From Sulfurospirillum sp. (GTDB lineage Bacteria; Campylobacterota; Campylobacteria; Campylobacterales; Sulfurospirillaceae): 64,000 nucleotides of DNA. Each line of letters begins with the position of its first letter. Within the stretch, counting starts at the first letter, position 1. The stretch is from NCBI GenBank assembly GCA_016744795.1, contig JADGDR010000005.1, positions 1 through 64,000 on the forward strand. Direction: 5' to 3'. A program made the position numbers and the translations under genes. The notes beneath the pieces are model-generated. The model worked only from the letters and a program-made list of their open reading frames with translations. It was not told the DNA's origin and ran no database searches. This document shows, in pieces, positions 6,911-15,257 of the stretch.

Positions 6911-7270
6911 TTAGTTTTTTATAGAAGTAAATAATTTTTTGATTTTTAGAAGTCCTAATTTCATTCCACTATATTTCATGATTTGTGTGACTTGTTTCCA
7001 TTTTGGTCTTTCATAACAAGGACTTGGGCATTTTCTACAACTTGGTTTTTCTTCATGTTCGCACTCTTGTAGTTTTTGATATGAGTATAAAAAAACTTCT
7101 TTACATGTAGAACAAAGATGGTAATCTAGAGCTACATTTAGAGGTTCACATTTAAATTCTAAATTTAATGTTTCAGGTAATTTTTTTTCATCTATATGTT
7201 TGTCATCACAATATATTTGTGTAAATTTTAGAACAGTTTTTGTATTTTCAATTAGTTTTTCACTTGTCAA
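6911..7270 (-). CDS. ygbA: YgbA-family nitrous-oxide-stimulated-promoter protein
   Basis: A cytoplasmic protein of about 119 residues with the YgbA cysteine pattern: IYCDDKH, then LCSTCKEVFLYS, CEHEEKPSCRKCPSPCYE and a C-terminal QIMKYSGMKLGL. In Escherichia coli ygbA is under NsrR control and is linked to recovery from nitrosative stress, so its place beside nrf is coherent. A longer frame opens at ATG 7297, but I prefer TTG 7270: GGAGG sits 9 bp upstream, and TTG overlaps the TGA of the preceding gene as TTGA, the usual coupling geometry. It is the last gene of a three-gene overlapping operon. The cysteines may bind a metal or Fe-S centre. Confidence 0.88.
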   Translation of the reverse strand: MTSEKLIENTKTVLKFTQIYCDDKHIDEKKLPETLNLEFKCEPLNVALDYHLCSTCKEVFLYSYQKLQECEHEEKPSCRKCPSPCYERPKWKQVTQIMKYSGMKLGLLKIKKLFTSIKN

Positions 7271-7770
7271 TTTCTCAATCCTCCGCGTTGAGACCATTTG
7301 TATTTTTGGTCATCTTTTATCGTAGAATAGTACAATGTACCTGAATTTCTCCAAGGGTCAAGGATAATACCTTTTTTAAAACTACAGCCTTTGCATGTAA
7401 CGACTAAAGCATTGTGTTCTTCCCAGTATTTATTGATGTTTGCACCGCCTATATAGTAATCGAAACTAGTTAGGTTTTGTTTTTTTGCATGTGCTAACAT
7501 GTCGTAGGCAAAGTGCCAACATAGTCCTCTTTTTTTCATTCCTATGTTAACTAAAAAATTATGAAACAAAGGAGGAGATACGAGTTTATATTTTACTGCT
7601 AGTTGTAAGGAGTAAGAAGACATCTCAAAAGAGAGTTTTTTTACATCTTCAGTATGAGTTGATATAGAAGCTAATGTTTGTTCTAAACTCTTTACATGTA
7701 AAGGTACTTTTGGTTCTTTAGCACAACCTAAAAAGAAAAAAAGAAGAAGTATTATGGACAGATATTTCAA
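7267..7770 (-). CDS. Lipoprotein with transglutaminase-like Cys-His-Asp pattern
   Basis: A 167-residue lipoprotein: hydrophobic signal then lipobox FFLGC with Cys16 as the likely lipidation site. The mature domain carries, in order, GLCWHFAYDM (Cys), EEHNALVV (His) and ILDPWRNSG (Asp), the order and spacing of a transglutaminase/papain-like catalytic triad. No family name is certain. It overlaps the upstream diguanylate cyclase gene by 4 bp and the downstream ygbA by 4 bp, so the three are co-expressed. LapG-type periplasmic cysteine proteases of the same fold are controlled by c-di-GMP, which makes the neighbour suggestive, but similarity to LapG itself is not evident. Confidence 0.7.
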   Translation of the reverse strand: MKYLSIILLLFFFLGCAKEPKVPLHVKSLEQTLASISTHTEDVKKLSFEMSSYSLQLAVKYKLVSPPLFHNFLVNIGMKKRGLCWHFAYDMLAHAKKQNLTSFDYYIGGANINKYWEEHNALVVTCKGCSFKKGIILDPWRNSGTLYYSTIKDDQKYKWSQRGGLRN

Positions 7771-10217
7771 CGAACTACAACTTTATTTCTTCCACTGTTT
7801 TTAGCATGATATAGAGCTTCATCAGCGCGTTTAAAAGTATCTTCTTTTTCATCATTTTCATGATACTGAGAAATACCAAAACTACATGTAATGCTTTTAA
7901 CAATAGGAAAATTAAAACATTCAATTTTATTTTTTATTTTTTTTGCAACAAGTTCTGCTTGTTTTATGTCAGTTTCAGGGCAGATAATTAAGAATTCTTC
8001 TCCTCCCCATCTTCCTAAAATATCTAAATTCCTTATGTTGTGTTGTAAAAGTTCTGATAGTTGAATTAAGATATTGTCTCCTATTTGATGTCCATAATCA
8101 TCATTGACATTTTTAAATAAGTCGATATCAATAAGTATAATGGAAAATATATTTTTGTATCTTTGTGCTCTTTGTAGTGCTATATCATAGTTATTGTCTA
8201 GATGCAGTCTATTTGGTATTTGTGTTAGGGTATCTGTTACAGATATCTTTTCTAGTTTCTTTTTATCTGTAATATTTTCTCGAATAGCATTAAACTCTTT
8301 TATAGTTCTATCTTTATTGAAAATAGGTGTAATTTTAGTATATGTCCAATAGTATGAACCATCTTTTTTTCTATTTTTCATTTCACTTTCCCAACAAGCA
8401 CCCTTTAGTATGGTTTCCCACATCTCTTTGTAATAACTATCATTCATATCTTCATATCTAAAAATATTGTGATTTTTCCCGATTAGTTCTTGTTTTGTAT
8501 AGCCTGTTAGTTGACACAAAGCTTCACTTATACTAGTTATATTTCCATCTATATCAGTTGTCGATACAAGGACATTATTTTCGATAATTTTTATATATTT
8601 TTTTATCTTTATGTTGTAGTTATGTATGGTATTATTTCTAAAAAGTAGTAGTATAACTAAAGTAGTTAAGAGAGCAAATATTTGCCAAAATAGTGAATAA
8701 TCAAACCCTTTTTCATATTTTATTCCTATATATTTGCTTAGAATATGTTGCTTGGTTTTTTCTGATAAATTTTTAACTGCCTTATTTAATATACTTAAAA
8801 GTATTTTGTCATCGTTTCTAACGGCTATGCTTAGTTCTAAGTTCTCATCAAATTTACCTGAAATCTTAAGCTCACCTGTAAACTCTTTTTGAAACATATA
8901 TCCTATAGTAGCCAAAGTATCTATGAAACCAAATAGTTGACCATTTGCAACTTTTTTAAGTCCATCAGATATATCTTTTACATTGATAATATTGATATTT
9001 GGATAATTTTTTTTTAAAGTTTCATTAAAGGCATATCCTTTTACTATTCCTATTTTTTCAGTTGATAATTTTTTTAAATTAACTATAAAAGGTACATCTG
9101 GTTTTGTAGCAATAACAACTGGCGTAGTAAAATATGGCGTAGTAAAATTCATAAATTTTTTTCTTTTTTTTGTTTTTGCTACTAGTGAAAGTATATCACA
9201 TTTTCTATTTTTGGCGAACCTTAATGATTGTTTCCACGTCGTGGTTTTTATAAGATTAATAGGAATACCAATGCCTTTTTGGAATATTTTAAAATACTGT
9301 GGTATCATTCCAATGTATTTTCCATCTTGATATTTTTCATAAGGCATCCAGTCTGGATCTATGCACATATTAATCTGTTTTTTTTCTTTTAAATAATTTT
9401 GTTCTATTTTTGTTAGTATTAATTTGTTGTCGTTTGTACTATAAGTTCTAAACCATTTCTCTTTTAATTTTGTTTTTTCAAATTCAGTAATAGTAGATAA
9501 ACCTTTATTTAAAATACTTATCGCCTCTGGCCAATCTTTTCTAATAGCAAATGCTAAGTCTAAACTATGTTTAAGAGGGTATGCAAAATCTAAATACGGA
9601 AGTCCTAGTTTTCCTAAAAGATAAGTTGTAGCACTATTTCCAAAAGTTAAATCTGCTTTACCATGTATAACTTCGTTTAACATTTCTTCTACAGTATTGG
9701 CATATATTATGGTTGAATTTATAAATTGCTTTGCTGTTTTTTCATCCATCATATTACCTTTGTGTATAACGATGGTTTTGTTAAATAAATCTTTATTTGA
9801 TTTTATATTTAGTGGATTTCTTGGTTTAACCATAACCATTTTTTGTAAAGATATATAGATGTTTGAAAAGTTAAACCATTTTTTCCTTTCTTGAAAAATA
9901 GCTAATGTACTAAGACCATCAATTTGATGTTTTTTTGCCATTCTTTGCATTTTTGACCAATTGCCAAGGACTTGAACAAAGTTTGCTCCAGTAGCTTTGT
10001 TTATTTTAGTTAGAATGTCATTATCATAACCTACAATTTCTCCTTTTTTGTTTTTCATAACATATGGTGCCCAACTGTCTCCAGTACCAAGTGTTATTGT
10101 AGGGTGATTTTTAATGAAATCTTTTTCTATTTGTGTTAAAGTAACTTGAGAAGATGCTTGTAGTGTATTTGCAAGAATTGTTATTAATAACATAATTTTA
10201 AAATGATTATTTATCAT
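7767..10217 (-). CDS. Membrane diguanylate cyclase with two periplasmic solute-binding domains and PAS
   Basis: An 816-residue sensor. It has a signal peptide, two tandem SBP_bac_3-type domains (about residues 30-255 and 275-500, each with amino-acid-binding-protein features such as TLGTGDSWAPY and CIDPDWMPYE), a membrane helix (about 515-532), a PAS domain (about 540-650, with YTKQELIGKNHNIFR and a PAC-like tail) and a C-terminal GGDEF domain. The active-site motif is GGEEF and an RxxD inhibitory I-site (RNLD) lies five residues before it, so a product-inhibited diguanylate cyclase is predicted. It is the first gene of the operon with the transglutaminase-like lipoprotein and ygbA. The ligand is unknown; amino acids or similar small solutes are likely. 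Confidence 0.92.
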   Translation of the reverse strand: MINNHFKIMLLITILANTLQASSQVTLTQIEKDFIKNHPTITLGTGDSWAPYVMKNKKGEIVGYDNDILTKINKATGANFVQVLGNWSKMQRMAKKHQIDGLSTLAIFQERKKWFNFSNIYISLQKMVMVKPRNPLNIKSNKDLFNKTIVIHKGNMMDEKTAKQFINSTIIYANTVEEMLNEVIHGKADLTFGNSATTYLLGKLGLPYLDFAYPLKHSLDLAFAIRKDWPEAISILNKGLSTITEFEKTKLKEKWFRTYSTNDNKLILTKIEQNYLKEKKQINMCIDPDWMPYEKYQDGKYIGMIPQYFKIFQKGIGIPINLIKTTTWKQSLRFAKNRKCDILSLVAKTKKRKKFMNFTTPYFTTPVVIATKPDVPFIVNLKKLSTEKIGIVKGYAFNETLKKNYPNINIINVKDISDGLKKVANGQLFGFIDTLATIGYMFQKEFTGELKISGKFDENLELSIAVRNDDKILLSILNKAVKNLSEKTKQHILSKYIGIKYEKGFDYSLFWQIFALLTTLVILLLFRNNTIHNYNIKIKKYIKIIENNVLVSTTDIDGNITSISEALCQLTGYTKQELIGKNHNIFRYEDMNDSYYKEMWETILKGACWESEMKNRKKDGSYYWTYTKITPIFNKDRTIKEFNAIRENITDKKKLEKISVTDTLTQIPNRLHLDNNYDIALQRAQRYKNIFSIILIDIDLFKNVNDDYGHQIGDNILIQLSELLQHNIRNLDILGRWGGEEFLIICPETDIKQAELVAKKIKNKIECFNFPIVKSITCSFGISQYHENDEKEDTFKRADEALYHAKNSGRNKVVVR

Positions 10218-10457: not shown

Positions 10458-12365
10458 ATGAAACAAGTTGTACTATTTTTTATTTTATTTACAGATATAC
10501 TTTTCTCAGATACATTAGAATCTTTACTCAAAGAGTACGAAATTACTTCTGAGAATTCTTTAAAAACAGTTGATGAAAAGTTGGGAAATGTTTTTATCTA
10601 TTCTCAAAAAGATATTAGATTAATGCAGTACAATACTCTTGACGATATATTAAAAGAGCTTCCTGTAGGTATTCTCAATAAAAATAGATTTGGCTTTTTT
10701 ACTCTTTCTTTAACGGGAAGTAAAACTTCTAGTGGATTTTTTAGATTTTTTATAGATGACCATGAAATAAGTTCTGCTTATACGCAATCTGCATCTCAGT
10801 CTTGGGGTGATTTACCTTTGGATTTTATTGATCATATTGAGATATATTATGGTGAAAGCTCTTTTGCCTTAGGTAATGCAACAGGTATGTATTTTGTAAG
10901 AATATATACTAAATCTGCTGTAAAAGAGAATGGAGGAGAACTCAAATCAGTACTTTTTGCAAATGGTTCAAGTTCTCATAGCATAGTTCATTCACAGAGT
11001 TTTGAAAATGGGTGGTCTTATCTGTTCTTTTTAAATAAAAACAGATTAAAAGATAAAACTGAGTATAACAATGAAATCTTAGAAAACAGCAAAGATAGAA
11101 AATATTTTTACGTTGACGTTAGTAACGAGAATACAAACATAAATATTGGATATACTGATTTAAAAAAAGATGCTTATATGGGTTTGTCTTTTGATGTAAT
11201 ACCAGATAGTAGTCAAATAAAATCAAATGACTTTTTCGTAAATATAACAAAATATTTGTTAGATGATAAATCAATTAAAATAGCTTTTTCAATGGATGTG
11301 GAGAATAGAGAGTATGAAGAGGAAAATGTTCAAGGAATAGGGCTTATACCCGTTCTAGATTTAGCGAATATGGGAACTACAACACCAAAATATTTTAGTG
11401 AAGATTTAAAATTTACTAAAACAAATGCTTATGTAGCAAAAAGTATTAAATATAAAAATAACAATATAATAACAGCATTTAACATAACAAATAAAAAATA
11501 TAAAGTTAAAAATAGAAAAACTATAAATTTTTTGAATCAAACTAACAAGCTAACTGAGTATAACAATTTTAATGAAGAGATGGTATACTCTTTATTGCTA
11601 CAAGATGATTATAAGGTAAATAATAATCTTCTTTTAATTGCAAATGCAAAAGTCGATAAGTATAAAAGAGAGAGTTATATAAAAGATTCTATTGAAAGTT
11701 TGTTTAGATTAGGGGTGATATATACTCCTTATGAAAACTTTGGATTAAAAGTTTTTTATACAGAGACTTATCTTCCTCCTTCATTTTATAATGTAGATTT
11801 TGTTGATAAACGTAGTCCAAATTTAAAATCACAAAAATATAAATATTATTCAATTGAAGGTGTTTATACTACCAATAAATCTAAATTTGGGATTATTTAT
11901 CATAATGTAAAAATAGATGATTTTATGTATCTTACTCCGGTTGGATTTACAAATATTGACCATGCTATTAAAACACAAGGGATTATGTTTAATTATGAGT
12001 ATCAATTTTCTCAAAAAAATAAAATTAATTTAAATTATTTTATTACAAAATTGAATGATATTACGACTAGTCCAACTGGTGGTGGGTACATTAAGTTTGT
12101 GGGAGAGCATAATAAACTTGGATATTTTAGTTCTTTGATTTATAAAAATTTTTATAAATATGATGGAGAGGAAGTCAAAAATAGTTTTGATTTGAGTCTT
12201 GGTGTAACCTATAGTTTTACAAAAGATTTTAGTTGTAGCATTAAAGGTGAAAATTTATTAGATAAATCTACAAAATCACTTTATACAAAGGGATTTTCAA
12301 AAACAGATTTTCCCCTCAATAATAACGACAGAAGGGTGTTGTTTTCTATGAAGTGGGTTTTTTAA
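10458..12365 (+). CDS. TonB-dependent receptor-like outer membrane protein
   Basis: About 635 residues: signal peptide (residues 1-17), a plug domain (about 40-155: TLDDILKELPVGI, then FFIDDHEISSAY and IDHIEIYYGESS, the usual plug landmarks) and a long beta-strand-rich barrel ending in KWVF, with the terminal aromatic residue needed for outer-membrane insertion. A late ENLLDKS is the typical penultimate-strand motif. I place the start at ATG 10458 (GAGG 5 bp upstream, proper signal peptide) rather than the TTG at 10443. The next two genes follow with 1-bp overlaps and encode an exported protein and a GGDEF-EAL protein, which suggests a sensory rather than purely nutritional role. No iron box or siderophore genes are adjacent. 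Confidence 0.9.
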   Translation: MKQVVLFFILFTDILFSDTLESLLKEYEITSENSLKTVDEKLGNVFIYSQKDIRLMQYNTLDDILKELPVGILNKNRFGFFTLSLTGSKTSSGFFRFFIDDHEISSAYTQSASQSWGDLPLDFIDHIEIYYGESSFALGNATGMYFVRIYTKSAVKENGGELKSVLFANGSSSHSIVHSQSFENGWSYLFFLNKNRLKDKTEYNNEILENSKDRKYFYVDVSNENTNINIGYTDLKKDAYMGLSFDVIPDSSQIKSNDFFVNITKYLLDDKSIKIAFSMDVENREYEEENVQGIGLIPVLDLANMGTTTPKYFSEDLKFTKTNAYVAKSIKYKNNNIITAFNITNKKYKVKNRKTINFLNQTNKLTEYNNFNEEMVYSLLLQDDYKVNNNLLLIANAKVDKYKRESYIKDSIESLFRLGVIYTPYENFGLKVFYTETYLPPSFYNVDFVDKRSPNLKSQKYKYYSIEGVYTTNKSKFGIIYHNVKIDDFMYLTPVGFTNIDHAIKTQGIMFNYEYQFSQKNKINLNYFITKLNDITTSPTGGGYIKFVGEHNKLGYFSSLIYKNFYKYDGEEVKNSFDLSLGVTYSFTKDFSCSIKGENLLDKSTKSLYTKGFSKTDFPLNNNDRRVLFSMKWVF

Positions 12366-12820
12366 TGAAGTTTTTTATATGCATATTTACTATTATTACA
12401 TCTTTATTTTCAAGTCAATATACATTTTTGCTAGAAAAATATGATAAAGAGATAGAACTTGAAGCAAAAATTTTGTTTGATATTGCAAAATCTTCAATAA
12501 AAAAAGATATAAAACTCTTTATACCTAAAATTACAAATATAGAAAAAAAAGTATATTCTAAGTACTTTATCTTGGCTAAAGAGTGTAAAACTTCAAATTT
12601 TATATTTATAAATAAGACTATACATAATGATAAATCATGTAACAAGTTAAATAAACTTTTTTTTACAAATAACTATAAAAAACTATTGTCAGATAGTAAA
12701 TATTATGGAGCATTTTTTTGGTGTAAAGGTAGACCAAATATTGTATTTATAAAAAGTAGGCTTGAAAAAAAAAGTATTGAACTACCTAATAACTATAATC
12801 AATATATAGAAAATTTTTGA
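12365..12820 (+). CDS. Small exported protein between a TonB receptor and a c-di-GMP protein
   Basis: About 151 residues with a signal peptide (residues 1-17). The start is the ATG in the TAATG junction with the receptor gene. The mature part has an alpha-rich N-terminal half (EIELEAKILFDIAKSS), two regions with cysteine (AKECKTS, NDKSCNKL) and a conserved-looking end, AFFWCKGRPNIVFI followed by LPNNYNQYI. I do not recognise a named family with certainty. Size, export and placement resemble YfiR-type periplasmic regulators that connect an outer-membrane protein to a diguanylate cyclase, but sequence similarity to YfiR/DUF4154 is not obvious. The stop overlaps the next start as TGATG. Confidence 0.7.
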   Translation: MKFFICIFTIITSLFSSQYTFLLEKYDKEIELEAKILFDIAKSSIKKDIKLFIPKITNIEKKVYSKYFILAKECKTSNFIFINKTIHNDKSCNKLNKLFFTNNYKKLLSDSKYYGAFFWCKGRPNIVFIKSRLEKKSIELPNNYNQYIENF

Positions 12821-14697
12821 TGAAAAATAAATTTTATTTAATGATTTTTGCAGCGGTTATTATTGTTATTTTAACAGTTATGTTTAGTATGATTTTGAAA
12901 CTAGAAAAAGAGACAAAAAACAAAATGTTTGAAATCTCAACATCAGATGTGTTTTCAATAGTCCAAAACAGTGCTAATACAATACAACAGTATTTAAAAA
13001 ATAGTACTAATTACATTGATGATATAAAAAATGACGTTTTACTTCAAAAAAAGATTGATAAGAATTTACAAATTCTAATTACCAAAAACATCAAATATGC
13101 ATATCTTCTATATAAAGATAAAAAAGGAATATTGAGGTTTTTAGCAGATGGCTCAGTAACAGAAGAAAAAGCCTTTTTAAATCAAAAGTTTGATGCAGAT
13201 AGCCCAATATGGTTTGATATTTATGAAAAAAAAGTACCTCTTACTATAGAACACACACTTTTATACAATTTATCTATAAGTCACATAGTGCCAATAATTT
13301 ATAATAAAAAAGTTGAATTGATTTTGGCAGTTGATTTTTCATTAAAAAAAGTTAAAGATACAGATGAAGTTATGAATTTGATAAAAAATGGTATTTTGAT
13401 AACTATCGTATGTATACTTATGTTTATACTTATTTTTTTAGTGCAAATAATAAGATATAAAAATATCAAAAAAACTGCATTTTATGATAAATTAACTAAT
13501 GTTTTAAATAGAAATTACTTGCAAAAAGCAAAAGATTTTTTTAACTTAAATGATTATATATTAGCAGTACTTGATATTGATTATTTTAAAAAAATAAATG
13601 ACACTTACGGACATCATATAGGTGATGAAATTTTAAAACGATTTGCAGATATAATTTTACATACTACTAGAGAAAAAGATGATATTGTAATTAGATATGG
13701 TGGTGAAGAGTTTTTAGTTTTAGCTAAAACTAAAAGAAATGATAACTTAAGTGCATTAAATTTAATAGAGAGGATTTTTTTTAATATACAAAAAAATAAA
13801 TTTCATATTTCTAATGAAGATTTTATTAACATAACAGTTTCTATTGGTGTTAATTTAACGCCACATTATTCAAAAAATTTTTCAGAAGCTTTTAAATTGG
13901 CAGATATTGCCCTGTATAATGCAAAAAATAGTGGTAGAAACAATATAGCAATTTATGATGAAAAAAATAAAGAAAATTCAAACATATCAATAAATGAGCT
14001 TAACTTTGCAATAGAAGATGATAGGGTTATTTGCCATTTTCAAAAGATTGTAGATGCACAAACACAAGAAACTTCATATTATGAAGCTCTTCTTAGGGTC
14101 ATAGATAAGAGGGGTAATTTGATTAAACCTGATAAAATATTGCCAGTAATTATGGGAACATTTATGTTAAGAGATATATCAAGAAAAGTACTAAATATCT
14201 GTTACGAAGAGTTGTTATCAAATCAAGAGATTTATATTAATGTAAATTTAAGTCCAGAAGATTTAATCAATGAACCTATTATTGATATCTTAAAAAATTA
14301 TGCGACAAAAGAGAATATTGCAAATAGACTTGGTATAGAGATAATACAGAGTGAAGAGATTGAAAATTATGAAAATGCAAAAAATAATTTATTTTTATTG
14401 AAAAAACTTGGTTATAAAATATTTTTAGATAATTTTGGTAATGGATATTCAAATTTTCTTTATCCTATTGAAATACAAGCAGATTATTTAAAGATAGATG
14501 GAGAAATAGTTAGAAAAATTATTGATGATAAGGACTCCTTTTTGGTTCTTAAAAGTATTGTCAATTTTGCAAAAGATGCAAATATAAAGGTCATAGCAAG
14601 ATGTGTCGAAAAACAAGAGATTTATGAAAAGGTAAAAACTTTAGATATTGAGTATTTTCAAGGTTATTTTTTCTCAAAACCAGATTTGATTAAGTAA
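12820..14697 (+). CDS. Membrane GGDEF-EAL protein with periplasmic sensor domain and degenerate EAL
   Basis: 625 residues: membrane helix 1 (about 6-26), a periplasmic sensor region (about 30-185), membrane helix 2 (about 190-210), GGDEF (about 220-380) and EAL (about 395-625). The cyclase motif GGEEF is intact but the residues five before it do not form the RxxD I-site. In the EAL domain EAL itself is kept (YEALLR), while the catalytic DDFG has become DNFG and the late AEGVE-type glutamate has become Arg (IARCVE). Loss of two metal/catalytic residues predicts no phosphodiesterase activity. It starts at the ATG in the TGATG junction and is the last gene of the receptor operon. Confidence 0.9.
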   Translation: MKNKFYLMIFAAVIIVILTVMFSMILKLEKETKNKMFEISTSDVFSIVQNSANTIQQYLKNSTNYIDDIKNDVLLQKKIDKNLQILITKNIKYAYLLYKDKKGILRFLADGSVTEEKAFLNQKFDADSPIWFDIYEKKVPLTIEHTLLYNLSISHIVPIIYNKKVELILAVDFSLKKVKDTDEVMNLIKNGILITIVCILMFILIFLVQIIRYKNIKKTAFYDKLTNVLNRNYLQKAKDFFNLNDYILAVLDIDYFKKINDTYGHHIGDEILKRFADIILHTTREKDDIVIRYGGEEFLVLAKTKRNDNLSALNLIERIFFNIQKNKFHISNEDFINITVSIGVNLTPHYSKNFSEAFKLADIALYNAKNSGRNNIAIYDEKNKENSNISINELNFAIEDDRVICHFQKIVDAQTQETSYYEALLRVIDKRGNLIKPDKILPVIMGTFMLRDISRKVLNICYEELLSNQEIYINVNLSPEDLINEPIIDILKNYATKENIANRLGIEIIQSEEIENYENAKNNLFLLKKLGYKIFLDNFGNGYSNFLYPIEIQADYLKIDGEIVRKIIDDKDSFLVLKSIVNFAKDANIKVIARCVEKQEIYEKVKTLDIEYFQGYFFSKPDLIK

Positions 14698-14984: not shown

Positions 14985-15257
14985 TTATTCACCACCACCA
15001 GTACCGATTCCTGAATCAGGATGTGCATCAAATGTTTTAACATTTTTATTTATTTTTTTAGCTTTCCATAGAGCCTCAATAATTTCATCGATATCTTTGG
15101 CAGGTAACTCTATAATTGATATGTTATTTTCTTTTAACTCGATAGTGATAATAGGGTCACTAAATTCACCATGAGGTTGTTCTATATGCTTTATGGTTAT
15201 GGTGCCACCTCTTGAATTTGAGGAAAGAAGAGTACTAACTTTTGTTTGTTTTGACAT
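14985..15257 (-). CDS. Small hypothetical protein with a glycine-rich tail
   Basis: 90 residues, no signal peptide or membrane helix. The centre is a beta-strand/helix mix (DPIITIELKENNISIIELP, then IDEIIEALWKAKKI) and the C-terminus ends HPDSGIGTGGGE. Reverse-strand ATG 15257 has AAGGAT just upstream. I do not recognise the family. It stands alone, 328 bp from rpmH, and faces away from it. The short size and Gly-rich tail are reminiscent of RiPP precursors or ubiquitin-like tails, but no modification genes are adjacent, so nothing should be concluded. Confidence 0.6.
   Translation of the reverse strand: MSKQTKVSTLLSSNSRGGTITIKHIEQPHGEFSDPIITIELKENNISIIELPAKDIDEIIEALWKAKKINKNVKTFDAHPDSGIGTGGGE

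Follow-up and report, generated by a model that had tools for sequence, protein, structure and literature searches.

A conserved gene triad of TonB-type receptor, YfiR-like periplasmic protein and signaling output in Sulfurospirillum and its relatives as a candidate TonB-independent relay across the envelope

In the YfiBNR system of P. aeruginosa (HmsCDE in Yersinia), one operon encodes an outer-membrane sensor, a periplasmic YfiR-fold protein and an inner-membrane cyclase carrying a periplasmic sensor domain. The input of this system is the OmpA-like lipoprotein YfiB, YfiR itself belongs to DUF4154, and the cyclase carries CHASE8 and HAMP domains. TonB-dependent transducers of the FecA-FecR-FecI type also have a TonB-type receptor (TBDR) that reports its state across the envelope, but these depend on TonB, carry an N-terminal signaling domain and have an anti-sigma factor as their target. 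A third point of comparison is WalK with YycH/YycI, where partner proteins control a single-Cache extracytoplasmic domain, although WalK is a Gram-positive kinase with membrane-anchored partners and no outer membrane. To our knowledge, inward signaling by a plugged outer-membrane receptor without an N-terminal signaling domain is known for few systems. Within a window of 64,000 nucleotides from Sulfurospirillum sp. (the whole stretch analyzed here), we find a three-gene locus laid out like YfiBNR but built from other parts: the input is a TBDR-fold receptor, the link is a small exported protein (SP) outside DUF4154 by sequence, and the output joins a predicted Cache-like sensor to a GGDEF-EAL tail and is swapped among relatives. 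Unlike the FecA type, the triad receptor has neither a signaling domain nor a TonB box, and the periplasmic link of the triad is soluble. We consider it likely that the triad is a YfiBNR-like envelope relay with a TonB-independent receptor as its input; a search of open-licence papers found no description of such a triad relay.

Table 1. Coordinates of the triad, its domains and motifs, and nearby genes in the window
Feature	Position	Strand	Remarks
TonB-type receptor (TBDR) gene	10458..12365	+	635 aa with signal peptide; Pfam plug E 2e-6, barrel E 1.5e-10
Receptor pre-plug segment DTLESLLKEYEITSENSLKTVDEKLG (mature protein)	10509..10586	+	no TonB box; LxxLL..Y...S.LS..T..E
Receptor plug domain	10581..10877	+	Pfam; weakest among the 11 plug domains of the genome
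TBDR/SP junction	12363..12367		TAATG, 1-bp overlap (sequence)
SP (small exported protein) gene	12365..12820	+	151 aa, YfiR-like predicted fold
SP probable signal peptide	12365..12418	+	residues 1-18, no lipobox (sequence); N-terminal helix in model
SP cysteines C74 and C92	12584..12640	+	probable disulfide; kept or lost together
SP signature GxF[FY]WxK[GS]RPN	12707..12739	+	residues 115-125; beta hairpin ahead of C-terminal helices
SP/output junction	12818..12822		TGATG, 1-bp overlap (sequence)
GGDEF-EAL output gene	12820..14697	+	625 aa; Pfam GGDEF E 3e-35, EAL E 4e-52
Periplasmic sensor domain	12901..13374	+	single-Cache/PAS-like; in the family, confined to triad outputs
GGDEF domain	13477..13944	+	Pfam, motif; intact GGEEF at 13699-13713 (residues 294-298)
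EAL domain	13993..14682	+	degenerate; metal-site changes D538N, E594R; also E510Q
Probable lipoprotein gene	7267..7770	-	167 aa; no Pfam family
SBP-PAS-GGDEF gene	7767..10217	-	two SBP_bac_3 domains, PAS, GGDEF
Small ORF	14985..15257	-	90 aa; C-terminal end GIGTGGGE

The three genes (Table 1) are joined by 1-bp overlaps, as the preliminary description of this DNA had it. The fixed stoichiometry that it drew from these overlaps is not supported; judged from the sequence, they suggest translational coupling. The flanks of the triad hold nitrite-reductase-type cytochromes and a YgbA protein, with yidC/jag/mnmE-type housekeeping genes on the downstream side (these and other names of flanking genes were taken from translations). 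No transport genes were found among these flanking genes in the ORF list and Pfam matches of the window, in agreement with the initial observation that none accompany the receptor, and no sigma or anti-sigma genes were seen among the direct neighbors. A defence-system library gave nothing but weak Cas10 matches, caused by the GGDEF fold. On the opposite strand, the SBP-PAS-GGDEF gene is transcribed divergently from the triad, with a 240-bp intergenic region in common; its product is a second c-di-GMP protein, with a periplasmic binding domain, and the gene is adjoined by that of the probable lipoprotein. The 90-aa ORF beyond the other end of the triad had no match in Pfam or NCBIfam.

The triad is conserved as a unit in more than 100 related genomes, including some apparently without the TonB motor. 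SP homologs are present in 30 of the 44 genomes of the window's family. Across the Campylobacterota sample, a profile finds them in 86 of 397 genomes, spread over 24 of 68 genera; a scan of species genomes found SP in some Aquificota as well, and a search of plasmids gave no match. Across the 158 distinct SPs collected from Campylobacterota and some Aquificota, a TBDR homologous to that of the window lies directly upstream in 150 loci, and the following gene in those 150 encodes a GGDEF motif (126), EAL only (4) or a histidine kinase (9), being a membrane signaling protein in almost all loci. The combination of receptor, small exported protein and GGDEF-EAL protein first noticed in a single sequence is thus a real and conserved neighborhood, outside of which SP is hardly ever found. 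Several of the kinase triads include a fourth gene, whose product is a PAS- and EAL-containing response regulator, and EAL presence has switched repeatedly along a quick SP tree that was used for counts only. The closest named relative by SP is Sulfurospirillum arcachonense DSM 9755 (66%). Because genomic surroundings vary between genera, the triad travels as a single unit. Operon partners need not touch, and the three genes might be co-regulated neighbors with no signal path, i.e. an uptake receptor whose operon happens to hold a regulator; we give this reading very little credence, given an order kept over 158 distinct loci with varied surroundings and swapped outputs, the strict co-occurrence of SP and sensor, and analogous TBDR-YfiR operons in Pseudomonadota.

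The periplasmic sensor domain of the output was matched in 140 of 142 triad outputs, including 8 of the 9 kinases, and constitutes one family across GGDEF, GGDEF-EAL and histidine-kinase outputs. All 39 further sensor matches in the fetched loci adjoin SP. Of the 44 genomes in the window's family, the same 30 hold both SP and sensor and the other 14 hold neither, with 40 loci of each at matching places, plus one weak partial sensor match. Since the sensor is common to all three kinds of output, SP and sensor form the module for which outputs are swapped, and their strict pairing despite these swaps points to a contact between the two proteins. Correlated pairwise distances (r 0.86-0.91) are also seen among SP, TBDR and sensor, a correlation that co-inheritance explains too. 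The AF2 model of the sensor (pLDDT 90.4) supports a Cache-like fold, its nearest Foldseek match being the extracellular domain of WalK (E about 1e-6), and neither CHASE8 nor HAMP was found in the window output.

SP had no match in Pfam, NCBIfam and PDB sequence searches, and DUF4154 (PF13689) was matched neither by SP nor by 29 homologs at E<1, nor anywhere in the window genome. The preliminary description of the exported protein as unrecognized therefore holds for Pfam families but not for the predicted fold, which is YfiR-like. When the protein was modeled by AF2 (pLDDT 86.9), nine YfiR chains were within the top fifteen Foldseek matches in the PDB (entries 4yn9, 4zhu, 4xjy, 4yn7, 5eb1 and 4zhy; probability 0.90-1.00, TM 0.47-0.55, i.e. 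about 0.5, E 0.01-0.07). Other leading matches were 3LKV and 3LFT, and these same two entries were non-YfiR neighbors in a Dali search with YfiR (PMC4655355), so we count them toward the likeness of the SP fold to YfiR. While the models support a YfiR-like fold, membership of the YfiR family by sequence is not established. A profile comparison of SP with DUF4154 at probability 90.7 came from profiles that included signal peptides; with mature parts only the probability was 14.5 and 1 of 40 shuffles scored higher, and since this score is not above the shuffled controls we make no claim to homology by sequence. Within the SP family, the signature is nearly invariant (G, K and R 100%, W 98%, P 96%), and the cysteine pair is complete in 115 members, missing in 33 and reduced to one cysteine in 7.

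True DUF4154 proteins occupy the equivalent slot in other TBDR operons and, together with the YfiR matches of the SP model and the single sensor domain that the outputs have in common, they support the parallel with YfiB-YfiR-YfiN drawn at the outset. TBDR operons with true DUF4154 and cyclases or kinases were observed in Campylobacterota and Pseudomonadota (loci L198-L206 and L325-L329). In the same phylum as the window, DUF4154 is flanked by a TBDR on one side and, on the other, by a GGDEF protein in L198 (CHASE8-HAMP-GGDEF by Pfam), L202 and L203 and by a GGDEF-EAL protein in L204, while in other loci the TBDR beside DUF4154 is longer and is accompanied by a kinase or a GGDEF protein. On plasmids of Pseudomonadota, TBDR and DUF4154 are followed by a CHASE8 kinase in Sphingobium (L326, L329), by a kinase in Indioceanicola (L325) and by a GGDEF-EAL protein in Pseudoalteromonas (L327). 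Such operons of Sulfurospirillum relatives, Sphingobium and Pseudoalteromonas keep the slot order of the triad and, where a TonB box would be, an LxxLL-type pre-plug segment, but they differ in their TBDR subfamilies, in having true DUF4154 and in their sensor (CHASE8 or another). The recurrence of DUF4154 between TBDRs and outputs marks a YfiR-protein link as a recurrent design, and open-licence papers searched for YfiR or DUF4154 together with TonB did not describe these operons. They may even belong with the triad to one general class in Campylobacterota, Aquificota and Pseudomonadota, in which TBDR-fold receptors act without TonB through a pre-plug segment on YfiR-fold proteins and swappable outputs (cyclases, phosphodiesterases, histidine kinases); we put this forward only tentatively, as slightly more doubtful than probable.

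The window receptor is the sole member of its TBDR subfamily in the genome and carries both a plug and a beta-barrel above the Pfam cut-offs, with no Pfam match to the STN signaling domain. Where a TonB box would be, triad receptors have the segment LxxLL..Y...S.LS..TK.E, conserved at L (92-96%), S (90%), T (97%), E (90%) and G (98%), which is a candidate docking site for SP. By motifs that were selected after inspection of sequences, a TonB box was absent from the window receptor and was present in 0 of 137 triad TBDRs in a first test and in 1 of 135 in a second, this one probably by chance. A TonB-box-like motif is found in nearly all other TBDRs of the window genome and in most of those of related genomes, and among control TBDRs from 20 relatives LxxLL, a motif selected in the same manner, was confined to receptors of SP or DUF4154 loci with one exception, a match deeper within a plug.

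A TonB_C match was found in all but 9 of 80 triad genomes (G007, G011, G025, G040, G047, G071, G082, G083 and G146), three of the nine being single-contig. Each of these has one strong ExbD-type match, located in a tol cluster in all five genomes read out (G011, G040, G047, G071, G083) and equating to TolR wherever examined. The window genome has five strong ExbD-type matches, fitting four TonBs plus Tol. The nine genomes have either one TonB_2 match, adjoining TolR, or none; as candidates for TonB, the TonB_2 matches of five genomes were rejected, since they adjoin the single ExbD-type gene, and the two read out (G040 and G011) are TolA beside TolR. Plug matches are limited to triad receptors in G040, G071, G082 and G083, G047 and G007 have triads with no plug match above threshold, and G011 still holds an ordinary TBDR with a TonB box. 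In genomes of family f5 (L402-L404), TolA in a clear tolQRAB-pal cluster was missed by both Pfam TonB_C and TonB_2, so a divergent TonB could likewise be missed in the genomes without TonB_C. As the triad is kept together in so many related genomes, even in some seemingly without TonB, it looks like an undescribed signal route across the envelope.

YfiR-like folds resemble a single lobe of ABC binding proteins (PMC4655355), and the SP model also matches the binding proteins 3lkv and 5z6v. SP could accordingly be seen as half of a type I binding-protein fold in a route of uptake-coupled sensing modeled on NspS-MbaA or LuxP-LuxQ, wherein the receptor imports a ligand, SP captures it and loaded SP activates the Cache sensor. 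The plug and barrel of the receptor and four TonB_C proteins in genome G000 would suit this route. We nevertheless hold it to be unlikely on the basis of the following: 1) triad receptors are without a TonB box; 2) no TonB system was detected in some triad-bearing genomes; 3) transport genes are absent beside triads; and 4) the invariant residues of SP are on a hairpin close to the C-terminal helices.

For the YfiBNR-like relay that we prefer, we infer contacts, signal direction and sign, and the kind of signal as follows. The TBDR-fold receptor would sense an outside ligand or the state of the envelope, and its pre-plug segment, in the TonB box's stead, would engage periplasmic SP instead of TonB. 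Following the YfiB-YfiR-YfiN pattern, SP may then hand this state, through binding or release, to the single-Cache sensor of the output. The sensor would in turn set how much c-di-GMP is made by the GGDEF domain, which is intact in the window protein; the EAL domain there is degenerate. Receptor occupancy could in this manner control c-di-GMP. If the relay works as proposed, it provides an extra outside-in route to c-di-GMP or phosphorelays, explains TBDR-like genes in TonB-less genomes, and offers roles for many proteins labeled 'TonB-dependent receptor', 'hypothetical' or 'YfiR family'.

The residues changed in the EAL domain of the window output are at positions conserved in nearly all relatives, most of which have intact EAL sites, and with GGEEF intact the window protein is probably a producer of c-di-GMP that lacks phosphodiesterase activity. 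LapD, whose degenerate EAL domain reads cytoplasmic c-di-GMP, works inside-out and is a precedent for the converse arrangement, in which the degenerate EAL of the window protein would read c-di-GMP and SP would gate or regulate the receptor. Such inside-out control seems quite improbable to us; the GGDEF domain is intact, EAL sites are intact in most relatives, and related triads with histidine kinases or EAL-less GGDEF proteins fit outside-in input. The YfiBNR-like relay is more likely than any of its three rivals (co-regulation alone, uptake-coupled sensing, inside-out control). In four triads of family f4 (L183, L184, L190 and L193) the output has lost the GGDEF motif and kept an intact EAL, and here the same input seems to be wired to c-di-GMP breakdown. 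In four other loci, L035 (G016), L036 (G023), L069 and L328, the receptor gene is interrupted by an insertion sequence or a frame break and the SP/YfiR gene is kept, which might reflect sequence errors or repeated loss of the receptor.
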